From positions 1 through 19,736 of the forward strand of contig QMUF01000011.1 in the NCBI GenBank assembly GCA_003663525.1: a stretch of 19,736 nucleotides of DNA, written 5' to 3'. A program made the translations under genes and the position numbers. The DNA is from Thermococci archaeon. Its GTDB lineage: Archaea; Methanobacteriota_B; Thermococci; Thermococcales; Thermococcaceae. Shown in pieces: positions 8,055-15,302 of this stretch (position 1 is its first letter; every line of letters starts with the position of its first letter). The notes below the pieces were generated by a model that saw only the letters and a list, made by a program, of their open reading frames with translations, was not told the DNA's origin and ran no database searches.

Positions 8055-8107
8055 GTTTATAACAATAGATAAATAGTAAAAAGACTAAGCTACTCTTGGT
8101 GAACAAT

Positions 8108-8986
8108 GTGAGGAGATTTATTAGTTTGATATTAATTCTCATTATAGCTGTTAGTGTTTCTGCATGTGTTTCAAAAGAAAGTTCTATGCCCTCTACAAGC
8201 TCATCATCTGCATCAACCTCACTAATCACAGGTGAAAGTACCAGCACCCCCAGTACCTCATCAGAAACGACTACAACTCAAACAATAAACATAAACAAAG
8301 CAGATATAATTGAAGCTATTGAAAAAGTTGAAAAATACGAATTTGCTGCTCAATACTCCACAATTCCAGAAAGTGATATTCAGATAACCTCCAAAGGGGG
8401 TTTTGATTATAGCAAAGAAGAGGTTTTCTGGGAGATAATTAGTAAAAGTGGAGATTTTGTAACGTATTCTAATGAAACTGTATGGGATGACTCCATTTAC
8501 TACTCCGCTCTTGTTAAGCAGAATAACAAGATAGTTCAAAAGGGGGAAGTAACTTTAACAATAGATGAATACTTTGAAAAAGTCCTCAAAGGCCGTACAG
8601 AGACTGCAACTCCTGAGGAATTTAAGCAACAACTTTTCGAGGGCCCAGACCCTACACGGAATCCCATTTATTACATCAGAGATATTCTTAGCAATGCAGA
8701 CTCATTTACAGCAAGTCAAGAAGGAGACAATTACGTGCTAACCTTCACCTTTACAAAAGAGGAGCAAATAACCCTTAATTCTGTACAGAAAGTTGTAAAA
8801 ATCCAAGGGACTGGAAAGTTATGGATTCGGAAGGATAATTTACCAATAAAAGGGGAAATAGAAATCACAAAAACAACAAGCTATGCGGGATTAGAAGAGA
8901 GTGCCACAACTTTAAATGCCGAAATAACATTTGAAATAATGTATGAATACCAACCCCCAGAGTGGGTAACTAAAATTACTAAATGA
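8108..8986 (+). CDS. secreted lipoprotein with Ser/Thr-rich linker (paralogue 1)
   Basis: Putative membrane-anchored lipoprotein of unknown function. The N-terminus is MRRF, a hydrophobic stretch and VSAC with Cys20 as the lipidation site. Residues about 21-60 form a Ser/Thr-rich linker, probably glycosylated. The remaining ~230 residues look like a beta-rich extracellular domain with FDYSKEEVFWE, YSNETVWDD, LTIDEYFEKVLKG and NPIYYIRDILSNA. The GTG at 8108 is preferred to TTG/GTG at 8096/8099 because GGTGA lies five bases before it. The paralogue downstream has the same arrangement and also places its cysteine at residue 20. A TATA box (TTTATAAC, 8056-8063) precedes it. No ABC transporter genes are adjacent, so a binding-protein role is not supported. 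Confidence 0.8.
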   Translation: MRRFISLILILIIAVSVSACVSKESSMPSTSSSSASTSLITGESTSTPSTSSETTTTQTININKADIIEAIEKVEKYEFAAQYSTIPESDIQITSKGGFDYSKEEVFWEIISKSGDFVTYSNETVWDDSIYYSALVKQNNKIVQKGEVTLTIDEYFEKVLKGRTETATPEEFKQQLFEGPDPTRNPIYYIRDILSNADSFTASQEGDNYVLTFTFTKEEQITLNSVQKVVKIQGTGKLWIRKDNLPIKGEIEITKTTSYAGLEESATTLNAEITFEIMYEYQPPEWVTKITK

Positions 8987-9024: not shown

Positions 9025-9057
9025 TATTAGTTGTCATAATTTACTTTGGTGAGAAAC

Positions 9058-9864
9058 TTGGAGAGGACTTTTGCTCTAAGTTTAATTCTCATAATTATGG
9101 CTAGTTTTTCTGCGTGTATTCAGAAGGAACCAACTCCCCAAAATCTTGCCAATGAGATTGAGGATGTTGATAAGTACATGTATTCACTGGAATACCACCT
9201 AAAATCCCCTTATGGGAATAGTAGTATGTATTATAAGGGTGGTTTTAATTATGACAGGGCTGAAGCATTCTGGGAAGGAAAAATAATATATAGTAATGGG
9301 GATGTGATTTACATCAATGAAACAATTATTGAAGATTTTCTGTACTTCTCCTACGTAACAGAGAGGAATAACAAAATTATTAATAGTGACACGGCGAACA
9401 TGACAATTCAGGAATATTTCGAGAAACTCAAGGATCATCTTCAGCCAAATATCAAAACGGTGGAGGATCTAAGGTATGAAATTCTCAAAGGAGCAGATTT
9501 GAGGAGTAACCCGCTCTATTATATCCGAGAAGCCCTCAACAATGTTACAAACTTTGAAACTACAAAGGGAGATGGAATTTATCTGGTCGCGTTTAATTTC
9601 ACTAGAATATATGAGATGCCAATACCTGAAAATATCAGTGCAGCTGAGGTGGCCTACTATGAGAGTATAAAATATACCACTATAACAAAAGGCTTTATGA
9701 GACTTTGGGTCAAGGGCAATCTTCCTATAAAAGGGGAAATTAAGGGAATAGAAATATTTAAACTACTTGCAGAAAATATCACCTCGACAAGGGAATTTAA
9801 TGCCAAATTTGAAGTTACATCGGATTATAAAAGACCAGAATGGCTCAAAAAGGTGCTTCAATAA
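9058..9864 (+). CDS. secreted lipoprotein (paralogue 2, no linker)
   Basis: Paralogue of the preceding lipoprotein. The signal segment MERTFALS leads to FSAC with the lipidation cysteine again at residue 20. The domain then begins almost at once, without the Ser/Thr linker. Blocks shared with paralogue 1 include FNYDRAEAFWE, YINETIIED, RNNKIINS, MTIQEYFEKL, NPLYYIREALNN, and the closing PEWLKKV against PEWVTKI. The TTG start at 9058 is selected because GGTGA is five bases upstream, as in the paralogue; starts at 9046 and 9049 would overlap that site. Length is 268 residues. Tandem duplication followed by divergence is the simplest explanation. Function unknown. Confidence 0.8.
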   Translation: MERTFALSLILIIMASFSACIQKEPTPQNLANEIEDVDKYMYSLEYHLKSPYGNSSMYYKGGFNYDRAEAFWEGKIIYSNGDVIYINETIIEDFLYFSYVTERNNKIINSDTANMTIQEYFEKLKDHLQPNIKTVEDLRYEILKGADLRSNPLYYIREALNNVTNFETTKGDGIYLVAFNFTRIYEMPIPENISAAEVAYYESIKYTTITKGFMRLWVKGNLPIKGEIKGIEIFKLLAENITSTREFNAKFEVTSDYKRPEWLKKVLQ

Positions 9865-10059: not shown

Positions 10060-10093
10060 AGTTATAACTTAAAAGTTAAAAGGTAGAAGTTAT
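10060..10093. repeat. TTATAACTT-type repeats downstream of the parA pair
   Basis: Contains the perfect 10-base palindrome AGTTATAACT (10060-10069, including TTATAACTT at 10062-10070), a nearby AAAAGTTAAAA, and TAGAAGTTAT at 10084-10093 overlapping the stop of the ParB-like gene. The same short words recur upstream of parA at 11168-11212. Confidence 0.45.
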
Positions 10094-10404
10094 TCAACCT
10101 TTTTCATCTGCTTTTCAACGGAACTCCATACCTCTGGATATTTCTCCTTTATTGCTTTTTCTAAAAGCTTACTTGCTTCATTTGAAATACTAAATTCTGG
10201 GATAGTTTTTCTTAGATATCTAAGGACTGCAGCTGCTTCTGGTGACCATAATGTTATTCTTGGATTCTTTAGGGCCTCATGGATACTTAACATTAATACC
10301 TCTTCATTAAGTTCTCCTTTTGACTTTTCTTTTGGTTTTTCTTCAATTGGGAGTGGCTCCGAAATAAGGGCTTCTAAACCTCTTCCAAGGGCTTTTTTCT
10401 TCAT
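10090..10404 (-). CDS. ParB-peptide protein: ParA-activating N-terminus on a small helical domain
   Basis: 104-residue partner of the ParA gene. Residues 2-14 (KKKALGRGLEALI) match the N-terminal signature of chromosomal ParB/Spo0J proteins, the flexible peptide whose basic residue (here Arg8) stimulates ParA ATPase. What follows is not ParB: a Pro/Glu/Lys linker (about 17-30) and one helical domain (31-104) with SPEAAAVLRYLRKTIPEFS and EKAIKEKYPEVW. The ParB CTP-binding (ParB/Srx) domain, HTH domain and dimerisation domain are absent, and there is no sign of a frameshift that removed them. The ATG overlaps the parA stop as ATGA, so translation is coupled. Probable ParA-activating adaptor; its DNA or protein target is unknown. 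Confidence 0.75.
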   Translation of the reverse strand: MKKKALGRGLEALISEPLPIEEKPKEKSKGELNEEVLMLSIHEALKNPRITLWSPEAAAVLRYLRKTIPEFSISNEASKLLEKAIKEKYPEVWSSVEKQMKKVE

Positions 10405-11150
10405 TTTCCATCGACCTCCTCGGCCAGCTTCATATATGCTTTAGCACCCCTACTATCAGGAGCATAAAGGAATATTGGTCTTCCATAGGAGGGAGCCTCT
10501 GCAAGCCTGACGTTTCTCGGTATCATTGTCTTGAAGACCTTTTCTCCAAATGTTCTCTTTACTTCCTCTCTAACTTCCTTGGAAAGATTGGTTCTTTTAT
10601 CGAACATTGTAATTAAAAAACCTTTAATTTCAAGTGGAATGCCAAGTCTATCCCTCACCAACCTTATTGCTTTTAAAAGCAGAGCAATCCCTTCAAGAGC
10701 ATAGTATTCTGCTTGTATTGGGATAATCACTTCATTACTTGCTACTAATGAGTTCATAGTAAGCACTCCAAGAGAAGGAGGCGTGTCAATAATAATGTAA
10801 TCGTAATCCCTCTTAAGCTTTGCAAGCTTATTTCTAAGTATGTATTCTCTTCCTATTTGACTACTCAGCTCGATTTCAGCACCACTTAATGCTATGTTAC
10901 TCGGAATCAGATGAAGACCATCTATGGAGGTCTTTACGATCACTTCTTCTATCTCTGCTTCATCTATTATCACATTGTAAATGGTTGGTGTTGCTCCTCT
11001 GAGGCCAAGGCCAATTGTAGTGGCTCCTTGCGGATCCATGTCCACAAGAAGGACGTTTTTCCCTTTTAGCGCCAATGCTGTTGATAAGTTTATTGCGGTA
11101 GTGCTCTTTCCTACTCCACCTTTTTGGTTTGCAATACTTATTACGGACAT
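10401..11150 (-). CDS. parA: ParA/Soj-type partitioning ATPase
   Basis: 249-residue ATPase of the ParA/MinD group (SIMIBI class), likely binding DNA as an ATP dimer and released by its partner's N-terminal peptide. It has the deviant Walker A QKGGVGKSTTAIN (signature Lys10, Lys15), the A' motif LVDMDPQG (residues 35-42) and Walker B YIIIDTPPS (Asp122). PRNVRLAEAPSYGRPI near the C-terminus is typical of Soj/ParA. It begins directly at the Walker A region and has no N-terminal HTH, so it is the chromosomal (type Ib-like) form and does not regulate itself through its own HTH. The ATG at 11150 lies about 26 bases from a TATA-like element at 11172-11180, suggesting a leaderless message. It overlaps the downstream partner by four bases. 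Confidence 0.92.
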   Translation of the reverse strand: MSVISIANQKGGVGKSTTAINLSTALALKGKNVLLVDMDPQGATTIGLGLRGATPTIYNVIIDEAEIEEVIVKTSIDGLHLIPSNIALSGAEIELSSQIGREYILRNKLAKLKRDYDYIIIDTPPSLGVLTMNSLVASNEVIIPIQAEYYALEGIALLLKAIRLVRDRLGIPLEIKGFLITMFDKRTNLSKEVREEVKRTFGEKVFKTMIPRNVRLAEAPSYGRPIFLYAPDSRGAKAYMKLAEEVDGK

Positions 11151-11167
11151 GGTAGCCCTAAGGTAGT

Positions 11168-11212
11168 TAGAAGTTATAAATCTTGAGAATTATAAGTTCT
11201 AAGTTATAAGTT
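11168..11212 (-). promoter_or_regulatory. parA promoter with clustered AAGTTATAA / TTATAAGTT repeats
   Basis: On the plus strand AAGTTATAA occurs at 11171-11179 and 11201-11209, and TTATAAGTT at 11190-11198 and 11204-11212, giving direct and inverted copies within 45 bases (two copies 14 bases apart). The copy nearest the gene coincides with the TATA box (minus-strand ATTTATAACTT). A protein bound to the repeats would cover the promoter, so autoregulation or a centromere-like (parS) function is plausible. Confidence 0.5.
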
Positions 11213-11360
11213 GTACCCCAAACAGCCAAAAGAATAATAGCTTATTTCTTGAAATCCTTGCTCTTCAGGACTAGTAAGGGGCCAGATTCTTTGTATTCTC
11301 AATGATAACCTTGCAGTTTGTTAGAGGGAGTGATATAAAAGGAAAAGTTAAAAATATTTA
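11213..11360. other. gene-free spacer upstream of the parA promoter
   Basis: No ORF, RNA gene or clear repeat is supported in this stretch. Only A/T-rich TATA-like words (GATATAAAAG near 11333, AAAATATTTATG near 11351) are seen, without a gene behind them. Confidence 0.3.
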
Positions 11361-11437
11361 TGAGCTACTCCTCGGCATGAACTGATATTCTTTTTTATCC
11401 TCCTAGAAGACCCCATCCGTTAGGGTGGGGTAGTTCA
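11361..11437. repeat. GC hairpin and imperfect inverted repeat, IS200/IS605-end-like
   Basis: CCCCATCC-GTTA-GGGTGGGG (11411-11430) forms an 8-bp stem with a 4-base loop and one wobble pair, very GC-rich against its surroundings. GGGGTAGTTCA (11427-11437) is an imperfect inverted copy (9 of 11) of TGAGCTACTCC (11361-11371). Such hairpins flanked by GTAGTTCA resemble the subterminal palindromes of archaeal IS200/IS605 elements and their short non-autonomous derivatives, but no tnpA or tnpB is present. It abuts the stop codon of the minus-strand gene ending at 11435, so it could instead serve as that gene's terminator or RNA-stabilising hairpin. Confidence 0.35.
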
Positions 11438-13162
11438 CTCTTTTGATATTAAAACGTAAATTGGCCGGTGATCTGAGACTTCCACATCTAAGAGCCATCC
11501 ATAATCTTTAACCTTTAAAGCACTTCCCCTCTTTATGATGATGTAGTCAATGTTTTCTATATCCACATTGCCCCAATTGAAAGTGTATGGAGGTCTTTCT
11601 GGGAATGCATCATAATACTCCGTAAGAAGTAGTTCTATCGCTTTTTCATGCAGTTCCGCATTTGTATCACCTAGGATTATTTCAGCCGCTGGATCTTTTA
11701 GTGCCATTTCTAAAAGTTCTTCTGCCTGTAAGGTTCTTTCTTCTGGATAAAGGCCCATGTGAACGTTTATGAGAACTAATCCATTACTCAACACCTTGAT
11801 TTTTTGAGCTGGTCTTGCCTGCCCAACGCTTTTAAGGTTCCTTTCTTCTATGGACTCTAGTGGCCACCTAGAAAATGTTGTGACTCCATAAGTACCTTCA
11901 ACAGCAGGGCTATATTCATAATAATACCCAAAATATGCTGACAAAAGAACAGGAATATCTTGGTAACCATTTCCTATCATGCCGCCAACTACTTCCTGAC
12001 TTGCCATAACATCTGGACTGTAGGTTTTTAGAAGTTTTACCAGCTCGTTTCCATTGAAGGCCCCTTTATATGGGGCAAAGCCCTGGTGAATGTTATAAGT
12101 CCACACTATGATTTCATCTTTGGTTTCTACGTCTACTGGACGAACGTGAAAAGCGGAAACTACAACGAGAGAAGCAATTATCATGCCAGCTATTGGAACT
12201 CCTATCTCTCTCATGTTGGGCCGCTCAATAACCAAAGGCCTAGAAGATAGAGTATAGACTAGTGTACTGGAGAGTATTAAAACTTCTAGATGATCTTCCA
12301 TAAAGGGGATTCCTATGTCTCTCCCCACATAAGCTCCAATGGCAAGTACTGAGACAGTTACGAAATATAGGGCACCAATAACTCCAAAACGGCCTTTTTT
12401 CACACTTTCGAGCAATGCAAGAGCTGAAGTGAGTGCAATGGGAATTCCTACAATGCCAAATGGTGGAACAAAGAGAGCAAACACACCAGCAATCAATAAT
12501 AGAGAGGTAAATTTATTGCCTGCTAGATATGGTGAAATAAGAATGGCCAGGGCCACTACAAATGAGTATCCCACAAAATGAAGCAAATAGCATGTTTCAA
12601 ATCCTGAATAGCGCATTATTGCGTTTGGGTAGATAAAACCCAAGTTGAGCAAGGCAGCAAAAGCATAAAGACCAAATCCAGGGCTTTTTAATTGGCCTTT
12701 CCCTTTCCATAACACATATGAAGCCCCTAAAATACAAATCACAAGCAAAATCCTTGTATAAATAAAATCAATTGGTTCTCCTCCAACTGCAAGCACCCTG
12801 AGCGTTAAGTCCATCACAAGCCCGAGAATAATGTACTTTACTTTAACCTCTTTTACGAGAGATAGAGCTACTGGCAATGCAAAGGCTGCTATTAAGTGAG
12901 TATACTCCGTGGCATCAGTTATTAAAGAAGCTATTGCATAAGCAGTTATTATAATTGCGCCTGTCTTTCGCTGCATCTTACCAACAAAGAAGGAAGCAAT
13001 CAAAAATAAGATTATTCCAAGAGCTGATGGAAACATGACTCCATAGAAAAAAGTTTTTTCAACGCTTGCATATGCCCCTGAAACAAAAATTCTCATAGAA
13101 GAGGCCAGTAAAACACCGCCTCCAATTCCTAAGATCATGTTATCTTGTTCCGATAATTTCAT
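11435..13162 (-). CDS. multi-TM membrane protein with C-terminal endonuclease/exonuclease/phosphatase domain
   Basis: 575 residues in two parts. Residues 1-340 contain about nine or ten hydrophobic helices. Residues 350-575 are an EEP (DNase I/AP endonuclease/sphingomyelinase-like) phosphodiesterase domain. Its active-site set is complete: YNIHQG (Asn357), SQEVVGG (Glu390), NVHMG (His468), LGDTNAE (Asp499, Asn501), IDYIII (Asp539) and VSDHRP (Asp564, His565). Such a membrane-tethered enzyme may act on phospholipid, inositol-phosphate or nucleotide phosphodiesters at the cell surface; the sequence does not say which. The ATG at 13162 has GGTGA six bases upstream and a TATA box (ATTTAAAT, 13198-13205). 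It is divergent from gap. Confidence 0.85.
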   Translation of the reverse strand: MKLSEQDNMILGIGGGVLLASSMRIFVSGAYASVEKTFFYGVMFPSALGIILFLIASFFVGKMQRKTGAIIITAYAIASLITDATEYTHLIAAFALPVALSLVKEVKVKYIILGLVMDLTLRVLAVGGEPIDFIYTRILLVICILGASYVLWKGKGQLKSPGFGLYAFAALLNLGFIYPNAIMRYSGFETCYLLHFVGYSFVVALAILISPYLAGNKFTSLLLIAGVFALFVPPFGIVGIPIALTSALALLESVKKGRFGVIGALYFVTVSVLAIGAYVGRDIGIPFMEDHLEVLILSSTLVYTLSSRPLVIERPNMREIGVPIAGMIIASLVVVSAFHVRPVDVETKDEIIVWTYNIHQGFAPYKGAFNGNELVKLLKTYSPDVMASQEVVGGMIGNGYQDIPVLLSAYFGYYYEYSPAVEGTYGVTTFSRWPLESIEERNLKSVGQARPAQKIKVLSNGLVLINVHMGLYPEERTLQAEELLEMALKDPAAEIILGDTNAELHEKAIELLLTEYYDAFPERPPYTFNWGNVDIENIDYIIIKRGSALKVKDYGWLLDVEVSDHRPIYVLISKE

Positions 13163-14395: not shown

Positions 14396-15302
14396 TTACT
14401 CCCACACTGCTTTGACGTCCAGCTTTTCGAAATCTTCCAAATCCCACAGGGGCCACCCCTCTCCCCTCAGTGTTTCTTTGTTTTTAACCTCTTTAGCCAC
14501 CAGGCCGTAGAAATGTTCCCACCCTTCCAGCCCCCACTAACTCACTCTTCCTTTCTAAGCTCTTCAAAATTCCCCTCGCTTCCCTTTCACTCAAGTCTTT
14601 CCACTTAACTTCAACGAGTAAAGCTTTCTTCTCACGCTCGTTCAAAGCGAGCAAATCAACCTCCTCGTTCCTGTGCCACCATCATCCAATTTTCGTGAAC
14701 TTAAAAGGCAACTCCTCTGCCCTGTTGAGCTCAATGAGGAACTGCTGGCCCATGTCTTCAAAGGCCCTATCCACATATGTGTTGAAAGCGGCCCAGTCCA
14801 TTTTAAACGTCCCAATCTCTATCTTTCCTCTGTTTGGCTTCACGAATCGAAACCAGAAGGTAAAGAAGTTGTCGTTTAGGTAGTAGCGGGCCTTCTTACT
14901 TCTTTCAGACTCCGTAATGGGAACTTCACGCCTCACGAGTTCAAGAGAAGTAAGGGTTTTTACGTATTTGGGCATGTCCTTGGTCTCAATTCCCGCAAAC
15001 TGGGCAATCTCACTTATCCGGTGCTTTCCAAGGGCTATCGCCTCAAGGATGAGATAATAGCGGTGAACGTCTCCAAGCTCTTCCCTCAGTATGAATTCTG
15101 GCTCCTCGTAGAGTATTGACGTCGGCGAGAACGCGAGCTTCAGCAGCTCCCCCTCAAAGTCCCTCCCTTTAAAAAGCCTGAAGTACATCGGAACGCCACC
15201 AGTGACTGAGTATATTCGAACTACAGTCTCTATGGGAGCATCTTTGAAGTATTTCCTCACGTGGAAAAAGTTAAGGGGCTTAAGCTTGAGCTTCTTCACC
15301 AA
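14396..15302 (-). pseudogene. broken archaeal DEXX-box ATPase (DUF234 C-terminal part)
   Basis: Relic of a member of the archaeal AAA-type ATPase family that carries a C-terminal DUF234 nuclease-like domain. The readable frame (14682-15302, 206 residues) starts in the middle of the family, LKPLNFFHVRKYF...YSVTGGVPMYF, then the winged-helix-like middle and FRFVKPNRG. The N-terminal P-loop ATPase domain is missing. At 14682 a TGA replaces a residue in FTKIG-WWHRNEEVDLLAL, and the same frame continues with LLVEVKWKDLSEREARGILKSLE. At the G-run 14531-14535 an apparent extra base moves the rest into another frame, EGWEHFYGLVAKEV to KAVWE, ending with TAA at 14396-14398. Base composition is more GC-rich than most of the window, suggesting transfer. 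Confidence 0.8.

Follow-up and report, generated by a model that had tools for sequence, protein, structure and literature searches.

A euryarchaeal SegAB cassette in a Thermococci genome, with a ParB-like peptide on SegB and candidate heptad-repeat centromere sites

The closest described relatives of the locus analysed here are the SegAB cassettes of archaea, which are reported to be widespread in Thermoproteota and Euryarchaeota, to consist of overlapping genes and to include the segAB of T. sibiricus (Kabli 2025, PMC12284271; this and the other papers are cited from the part of their text that was accessible). In Sulfolobus/Saccharolobus solfataricus, as here, the ParA-family ATPase SegA and its partner SegB are encoded in this overlapping order, and SegB binds DNA through a ribbon-helix-helix (RHH) domain (PMC12284271, PMC9178275). 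The published Sulfolobus site, TCTAGA-S-TCTAGA, occurs upstream of segA and clustered round segAB. When T. sibiricus was searched with that motif, seven weak sites were found, none of them near segAB, and sites of another sequence are considered in the accessible text to be probably present there, yet not found (Kabli 2025, PMC12284271). How far SegAB is conserved across Euryarchaea, and whether variants exist, has been raised as a question (PMC5120986, accessible part).

Bacterial partition systems offer further comparisons. Chromosomal ParABS (Soj/Spo0J) shares with our locus a Soj-type ParA and an N-terminal LG[RK]GLxAL box like that of T. thermophilus Spo0J, whereas the SegB described below lacks a ParB_N/CTPase domain and would bind DNA through an RHH domain at sites made of heptad arrays. 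The omega/delta system of pSM19035 and the ParFG system of TP228 combine a ParA with a small RHH centromere-binding protein, as here; both are bacterial plasmid systems, and the likeness is one of description. Omega is reported to bind heptad repeats and to wrap DNA in the manner of SegB (PMC9178275), and the N-terminus of ParG to activate ParF (PMC12462528).

In the window, by which we mean the whole stretch of 19,736 nucleotides analysed, we found the following features.

10401..11150, minus strand: segA, 249 aa, ParA/Soj-type Walker ATPase with Walker A motif KGGVGKS
10090..10404, minus strand: segB, 104 aa, with a putative N-terminal ParA-contact box, a linker and an RHH domain; N-terminus MKKKALGRGLEALI
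10401..10404, minus strand: ATGA in which the segA stop and the segB start overlap, read from the ORF coordinates and the sequence
10363..10404, minus strand: ParB-like box LG[RK]GLxALI, SegB residues 1-14, from the alignment, a PDB profile match and counts in relatives
10309..10362, minus strand: variable linker, SegB residues 15-32, gapped in the alignment and predicted disordered
10102..10275, minus strand: RHH DNA-binding domain, SegB residues 44-101, by homology to Sulfolobus SegB
11167..11216, no strand assigned: upstream (TTATAAS)n array in the segA promoter, candidate SegB centromere/operator, 4 of the 6 window matches
11174..11180, minus strand: TTTATAA, likely segA TATA box inside the array, read directly and assigned by its distance from the segA ATG
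10062..10081, no strand assigned: heptad array immediately 3' of the segB stop, also a candidate SegB site, 2 of the 6 window matches

The initial annotation had described an intact gene of 104 residues, coupled to parA by an ATGA overlap, and both reading frames were indeed found at these coordinates, with segB directly 3' of the overlapping segA, the product of which belongs to Pfam AAA_31 (220.6 bits). A database search with the 104-residue protein at E <= 10 returned 111 relatives, every one at E <= 1.1e-12; given these relatives and its presence in nearly all genomes of the genus (below), the frame is confirmed as a real gene, beyond chance. That part of the initial reading stands, as does its ParB-type peptide, whereas its new domain and new type of system do not.

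Structures of SegA and SegB were reportedly obtained by Yen in 2021. In a sequence search of the PDB, residues 34-101 of the partner matched the Sulfolobus SegB structure 7duv (E 1.1e-9) and residues 44-101 matched 7dv2 (about E 1e-9), the title of which names a Sulfolobus solfataricus SegB-DNA complex. Just these two chains, both SegB, were found at that level, and a profile built from a 26-row SegB alignment reached 7duv at E 3.5e-15. RHH had been one of the folds suggested for residues 31-104, and it is the one that the sequence search gave; the remainder of the protein is thus SegB and not a new domain, and the supposed separate type of partition system is the known SegAB, because of this structure match and because T. 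sibiricus segAB is in print (PMC12284271, accessible text). The idea that the adaptor domain is new, and the system a novel one for partition or protein positioning, which draws on the lack of any Pfam family above cut-off and of any NCBIfam family for the 104-residue protein, is rejected on the same two grounds, and we regard it as scarcely credible. Two sub-threshold Pfam matches (T4_y05I_C, E 0.043; CM1, E 0.049) were ignored. Foldseek with the SegB model gave no significant structural match, and pLDDT fell below 50 at model residues 12-28 (numbered without the Met).

Still less credence can be given to a decayed parB that retains only its 5' end. The N-terminal box does resemble ParB, and, as the initial annotation had it, the 104-residue protein contains no PF02195 (ParB_N) domain, but the frame has stayed open in 12/13 genus genomes and the rest of the protein is SegB; a broken parB, which the annotation had also discounted, is rejected for these reasons. 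A full-length ParB elsewhere in the genome had been named as a possible objection. No PF02195 match was found in the organism's own genome, an absence that is not conclusive because this genome is 82.8% complete.

The most distinctive part of the protein is its N-terminus. L6, G7 and G9 (full-protein numbering) are invariant in 26/26 aligned euryarchaeal SegBs, within a box that reads LG[RK]G[LI]xALI, and by regular expression it was recognised in 82/111 relatives, with R at its central position in 61, K in 18, A in 2 and M in 1. The 29 others include one near-box and three with another N-terminus, and many of them look N-terminally truncated. Three relatives (P0105, P0106 and P0111) carry a third type, PIPxSRxGxLF, in place of the LGRGL box. 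In contrast, the box occurs in 0/52 of the proteins found with Sulfolobus SegB, which mostly start MSELDFLLKKKK or alike (46/52 start MS[ED]L[DE]). When a profile of 19 SegB N-termini was compared with the PDB, the top match was T. thermophilus Spo0J, residues 4-18 (KPSGLGRGLEALLPK), at an E of only 0.01; residues 1-11 of H. pylori ParB were also among the five matches (E 1.1), and the three ranked between these two were lumazine synthases or a design of that length. The ParB-like N-terminus that the initial annotation had recognised is borne out by these results, the likeness to ParB being suggested by a weak match (E 0.01) that falls at the right place in Spo0J. The ParA-binding motif of ParB is described as both positively charged and aliphatic; its central residue is R or, in roughly half of the chromosomal ParBs, K (PMC12462528, accessible part). 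SegB itself is said in the accessible texts to be without similarity to ParB (PMC9178275) and evolutionarily unrelated to it (PMC12284271), and the N-terminal peptide of euryarchaeal SegB is, as far as its sequence tells, an exception to this, over a likeness of 9-12 residues. In a literature search poor in subscription papers we found no publication on the box in SegB, and the string TTATAACTTATAA retrieved one paper, on a phage and unrelated in its accessible part.

With SegA as query, bacterial ParA/Soj chains scored far higher than the Sulfolobus one: 8ray, a bacterial ParA named 'ParA family protein', scored 243 bits and 1wcv, which we take to be T. thermophilus Soj, 225 bits. The chain 7dut, presumably S. 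solfataricus SegA although its database name is Soj, scored 73 bits at rank 12, below MinD-type archaeal chains. Euryarchaeal SegA is nevertheless treated as SegA in print (PMC12284271, accessible text), and because closeness to the Sulfolobus SegA is not what defines the family there, we retain the name SegAB on the strength of SegB and the gene order. Here a Soj-type ATPase goes with a ParB-type peptide, whereas in Sulfolobales both the SegA and the peptide are of another kind; from the score ranks we read this as a possible swap of the two together on an RHH body that the groups have in common.

These are the same genes as those already in print for T. sibiricus and other Euryarchaeota (Kabli 2025; Barilla 2016; accessible parts), so that segAB in Thermococcus is already known. 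In a survey of 61 genomes with the single query sequence, which distant copies may escape, SegB was present in the 12 genus genomes mentioned above, in 0/24 of the sister genera, in 1/21 further genomes of the class and in 1/3 of the domain; the sole genus genome without a match (G001) is 61% complete. This confinement to one genus within the family suggests gain by transfer, or loss elsewhere. Among Methanobacteria, SegB was found in 49 of the 51 genomes examined, one of which (G102:C1:478541-478741) has a second, weaker match (E 6.9e-13), perhaps a second cassette.

Other genes of the window were looked at in passing. The frame at 11435-13162, upstream of segA on the same strand, encodes a C-terminal endonuclease/exonuclease/phosphatase domain behind a first half with membrane helices by eye. 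On the other side, 8096-8986 and 9046-9864 are tandem paralogous genes, lipoprotein-like by eye, 32% identical and with no Pfam match. The 206-aa DUF234 piece at 14682-15302 matched no ATPase domain and probably comes from a truncated gene for an archaeal ATPase.

On both sides of the operon we found TTATAAS (S being G or C) repeated in phase every 7 bp. The pattern TTATAASTTATAA, at two mismatches or fewer, has six matches in the window, all of them flanking the operon, compared with 1.31 expected and with 0/200 shuffles reaching six. The upstream matches share a single 7-bp register, with centres at -63, -56, -49 and -42 from the segA start. Across the loci L001-L012, upstream matches in register, lying beyond the TATA region, number three in L001-L003 and L009-L012, two in L004-L006 and one in L007 and L008, and a copy 3' of segB at two mismatches or fewer is found in 12/12 loci. 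The sites upstream of segA are palindromic, in a hexamer-S-hexamer arrangement with TTATAA replacing TCTAGA, and thus keep the layout and the 7-bp period of the Sulfolobus site (PMC12284271, accessible text) while its letters differ. The Sulfolobus letters themselves (TCTAGASTCTAGA) gave 7 matches in the window at 3 mismatches, 6.0 being expected and none flanking the operon, and were rejected as a site near segAB, being at chance level. Whereas sites of the Sulfolobus motif in T. sibiricus are, in print, absent from the neighbourhood of segAB (accessible text), arrays of another hexamer stand beside it here. The recognition strand of SegB differs too, being NPR[IV]x[LVT]W in 108/111 SegBs of the euryarchaeal set and DPKIG[VI]W in 51/52 Sulfolobus-type SegBs. 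Taken together, the (TTATAAS)n arrays are likely centromere sites of SegB, judging from sequence. The new DNA target that the initial annotation had foreseen would then be new in that it is not the published Sulfolobus sequence, and not new in that it is a related 7-bp repeat. We found no publication on the heptad site, again in a search poor in subscription papers.

The arrays resemble TATA elements in sequence, and the likely segA TATA box falls within one of them, so it could be considered that SegB is the partner of SegA while the arrays belong to another regulator or are promoter elements; the case for SegB binding to them being one of sequence, this has to be weighed. Against it, an array also stands just 3' of the segB stop, and the 7-bp phasing is common to the published Sulfolobus SegB site (PMC12284271, accessible text). 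Loci outside the Thermococcus group bear on the same question. Of 80 related loci, a subset of 104 confirmed, we used 67 (2 Thermococcus loci, 8 in which segA was not found and 3 with fewer than 150 bases upstream were excluded), and 50 of these have arrays upstream of segA, with 116 matches in all; the reversed pattern gave 2 and dinucleotide shuffles a mean of 1.9 (max 5), and 51,360 bases of segA coding sequence gave zero. Because the loci are related, they are not independent samples. Those with matches are nearly all Methanobacteriales; each of the two Archaeoglobaceae loci has a single match, and the only Methanosaeta locus has no match to the 13-mer. Independently of the hexamer letters, G/C spacing upstream of segA peaks at 7, 14, 21 and 28 bp (1.48-1.65x expectation), other spacings up to 30 bp being at 0.78-1.05x.

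Genome-wide counts in Thermococcaceae also follow segAB. At one mismatch or fewer, TTATAASTTATAA occurs 7-22 times per genome in 10 segAB-positive genomes (reversed pattern 3-12) and 0-7 times in 12 segAB-negative sister genomes (reversed 0-11), the 22 genomes being 10/13 of the genus and 12/24 of the sister genera from the survey. Triple heptads at three mismatches or fewer number 24, 18, 17, 15 and 17 in five of the 13 genus genomes, all complete and segAB-positive (reversed 0-5), and 0-2 each, seven in sum, in the 12 sister genomes (reversed 0-3); the contrast is one of a single clade with others. With matches merged and those beside segAB excluded, 28/33 distal arrays are no further than 250 kb from segAB, compared with an expectation of about one in four, and the clustering is significant in all five complete genomes (G003, G008, G010, G011 and G012; p 0.00005-0.013 per genome). 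The arrays are not centred on the best-scoring orc1/cdc6 gene, which is 419-763 kb from segAB; in G011 there is another gene of orc1 type, at 1339272, which is 84 kb from segAB. An internal control used 51 of 52 fetched stretches, L034, beside segB, being left out. Of the sites with at least three heptads, 24/26 lie within 15% of genome length of segAB and 22/26 have a syntenic counterpart in another species, compared with 11/25 and 6/25 for two-heptad matches. Nineteen of the 26 distal arrays sit no more than 60 bases from the stop of a frame that is open for at least 240 bases, and two (the syntenic pair L017 and L027) are enclosed in a frame that stays open across the whole fetched stretch. 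This preference for 3' ends of frames, the rarity in segAB-negative sisters, the clustering in five of five genomes and the upstream arrays of the other loci speak against a foreign regulator or promoter elements, which we now hold to be quite improbable.

A second alternative would make the arrays autoregulatory operators of segAB only, with the distal copies neutral remnants and SegAB doing another job, and here the Methanobacteria are informative. Triple heptads at two mismatches or fewer occur 2-17 times in 12 complete Methanobacteria genomes (reversed 0-6) and zero times in two genomes without a SegB match, the reversed pattern exceeding the true one in G068 (6 vs 2) and reaching 4 vs 9 in G078. 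Clustering was analysed in 11 of the 12 (G095 was left out), and in nine of these 11 arrays lie within 3 kb of segB. G108 has a tight cluster of five arrays within 76 kb (at about 1286883, 1294869, 1317954, 1337242 and 1362087), with orc1 41 kb from segB, and tight distal clustering was also found in G110, G063 and G070, the last with only two arrays, within 6 kb. G063 has no array within 3 kb of segB and six perfect copies of a 27-bp heptad palindrome 31-94 kb from it; because five of the six (L149-L153) share flanking sequence, as parts of a larger repeated element, they are partly duplications of that repeat. Arrays more than 3 kb from segAB were not significantly clustered in G059, G074, G076, G078, G079 and G098 (p 0.08-0.90, five of the six lengths being rounded in the test), and G068 has none beyond 3 kb, so in these seven genomes the repeats could be mainly operators. 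G059 has one array 5 kb from orc1, and G098 has none near segB. The operator-only explanation is thus favoured by six Methanobacteria without distal clustering and by G068, but it has to contend with the synteny of 22/26 distal arrays of at least three heptads between Thermococcus-group species and with significant distal clustering in nine genomes (the five of the Thermococcus group and G063, G108, G110 and G070), and we consider it unlikely, if somewhat less so than the preceding alternative. Clustering is thus observed for Thermococcus and for some methanogens.

We consider it very probable that the locus is the known SegAB chromosome-segregation cassette in its euryarchaeal form, in which SegB sits on a dispersed (TTATAAS)n centromere and its ParB-like box triggers a Soj-type SegA. 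SegB dimers would bind the phased 7-bp repeats through the RHH domain, several of them probably side by side, as reported for omega and Sulfolobus SegB (PMC9178275, accessible part). One array on each side of segAB, and others, mostly at gene ends, over a few hundred kilobases, would make up the dispersed centromere, those at segAB probably acting as autoregulatory operator too. From there the disordered SegB N-termini could reach a Soj-type SegA dimer on nucleoid DNA, where the LG[RK]GLxALI box would dock like that of ParB and lead SegA to hydrolyse ATP; hydrolysis would release SegA, and the centromere (segAB) region would be moved or tethered. SegB is reported to stimulate SegA in Sulfolobus (PMC11381335, accessible part); in the present case, both the binding of SegB to the heptads and the activation of SegA by the box are our inference. 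With less assurance, though we incline towards it, the cassette may be seen as a hybrid, with an RHH body, a ParB-type peptide and a Soj-type ParA on a conserved (TTATAAS)n centromere; between Sulfolobales and Euryarchaeota, ATPase and peptide would have been exchanged together, and the site would have kept its 7-bp layout while its letters changed along with the recognition strand.

Beyond what is in print, we found a ParB-like box that is widespread in euryarchaeal SegB and (TTATAAS)n repeats that flank segAB. The heptad motif supplies testable SegB sites in Thermococcus and Methanobacteriales, and makes of euryarchaeal centromeres a question for EMSA and ChIP. The ParB-type box qualifies the printed claim of no similarity between SegB and ParB, and suggests that ParA-activating peptides may be exchangeable modules.
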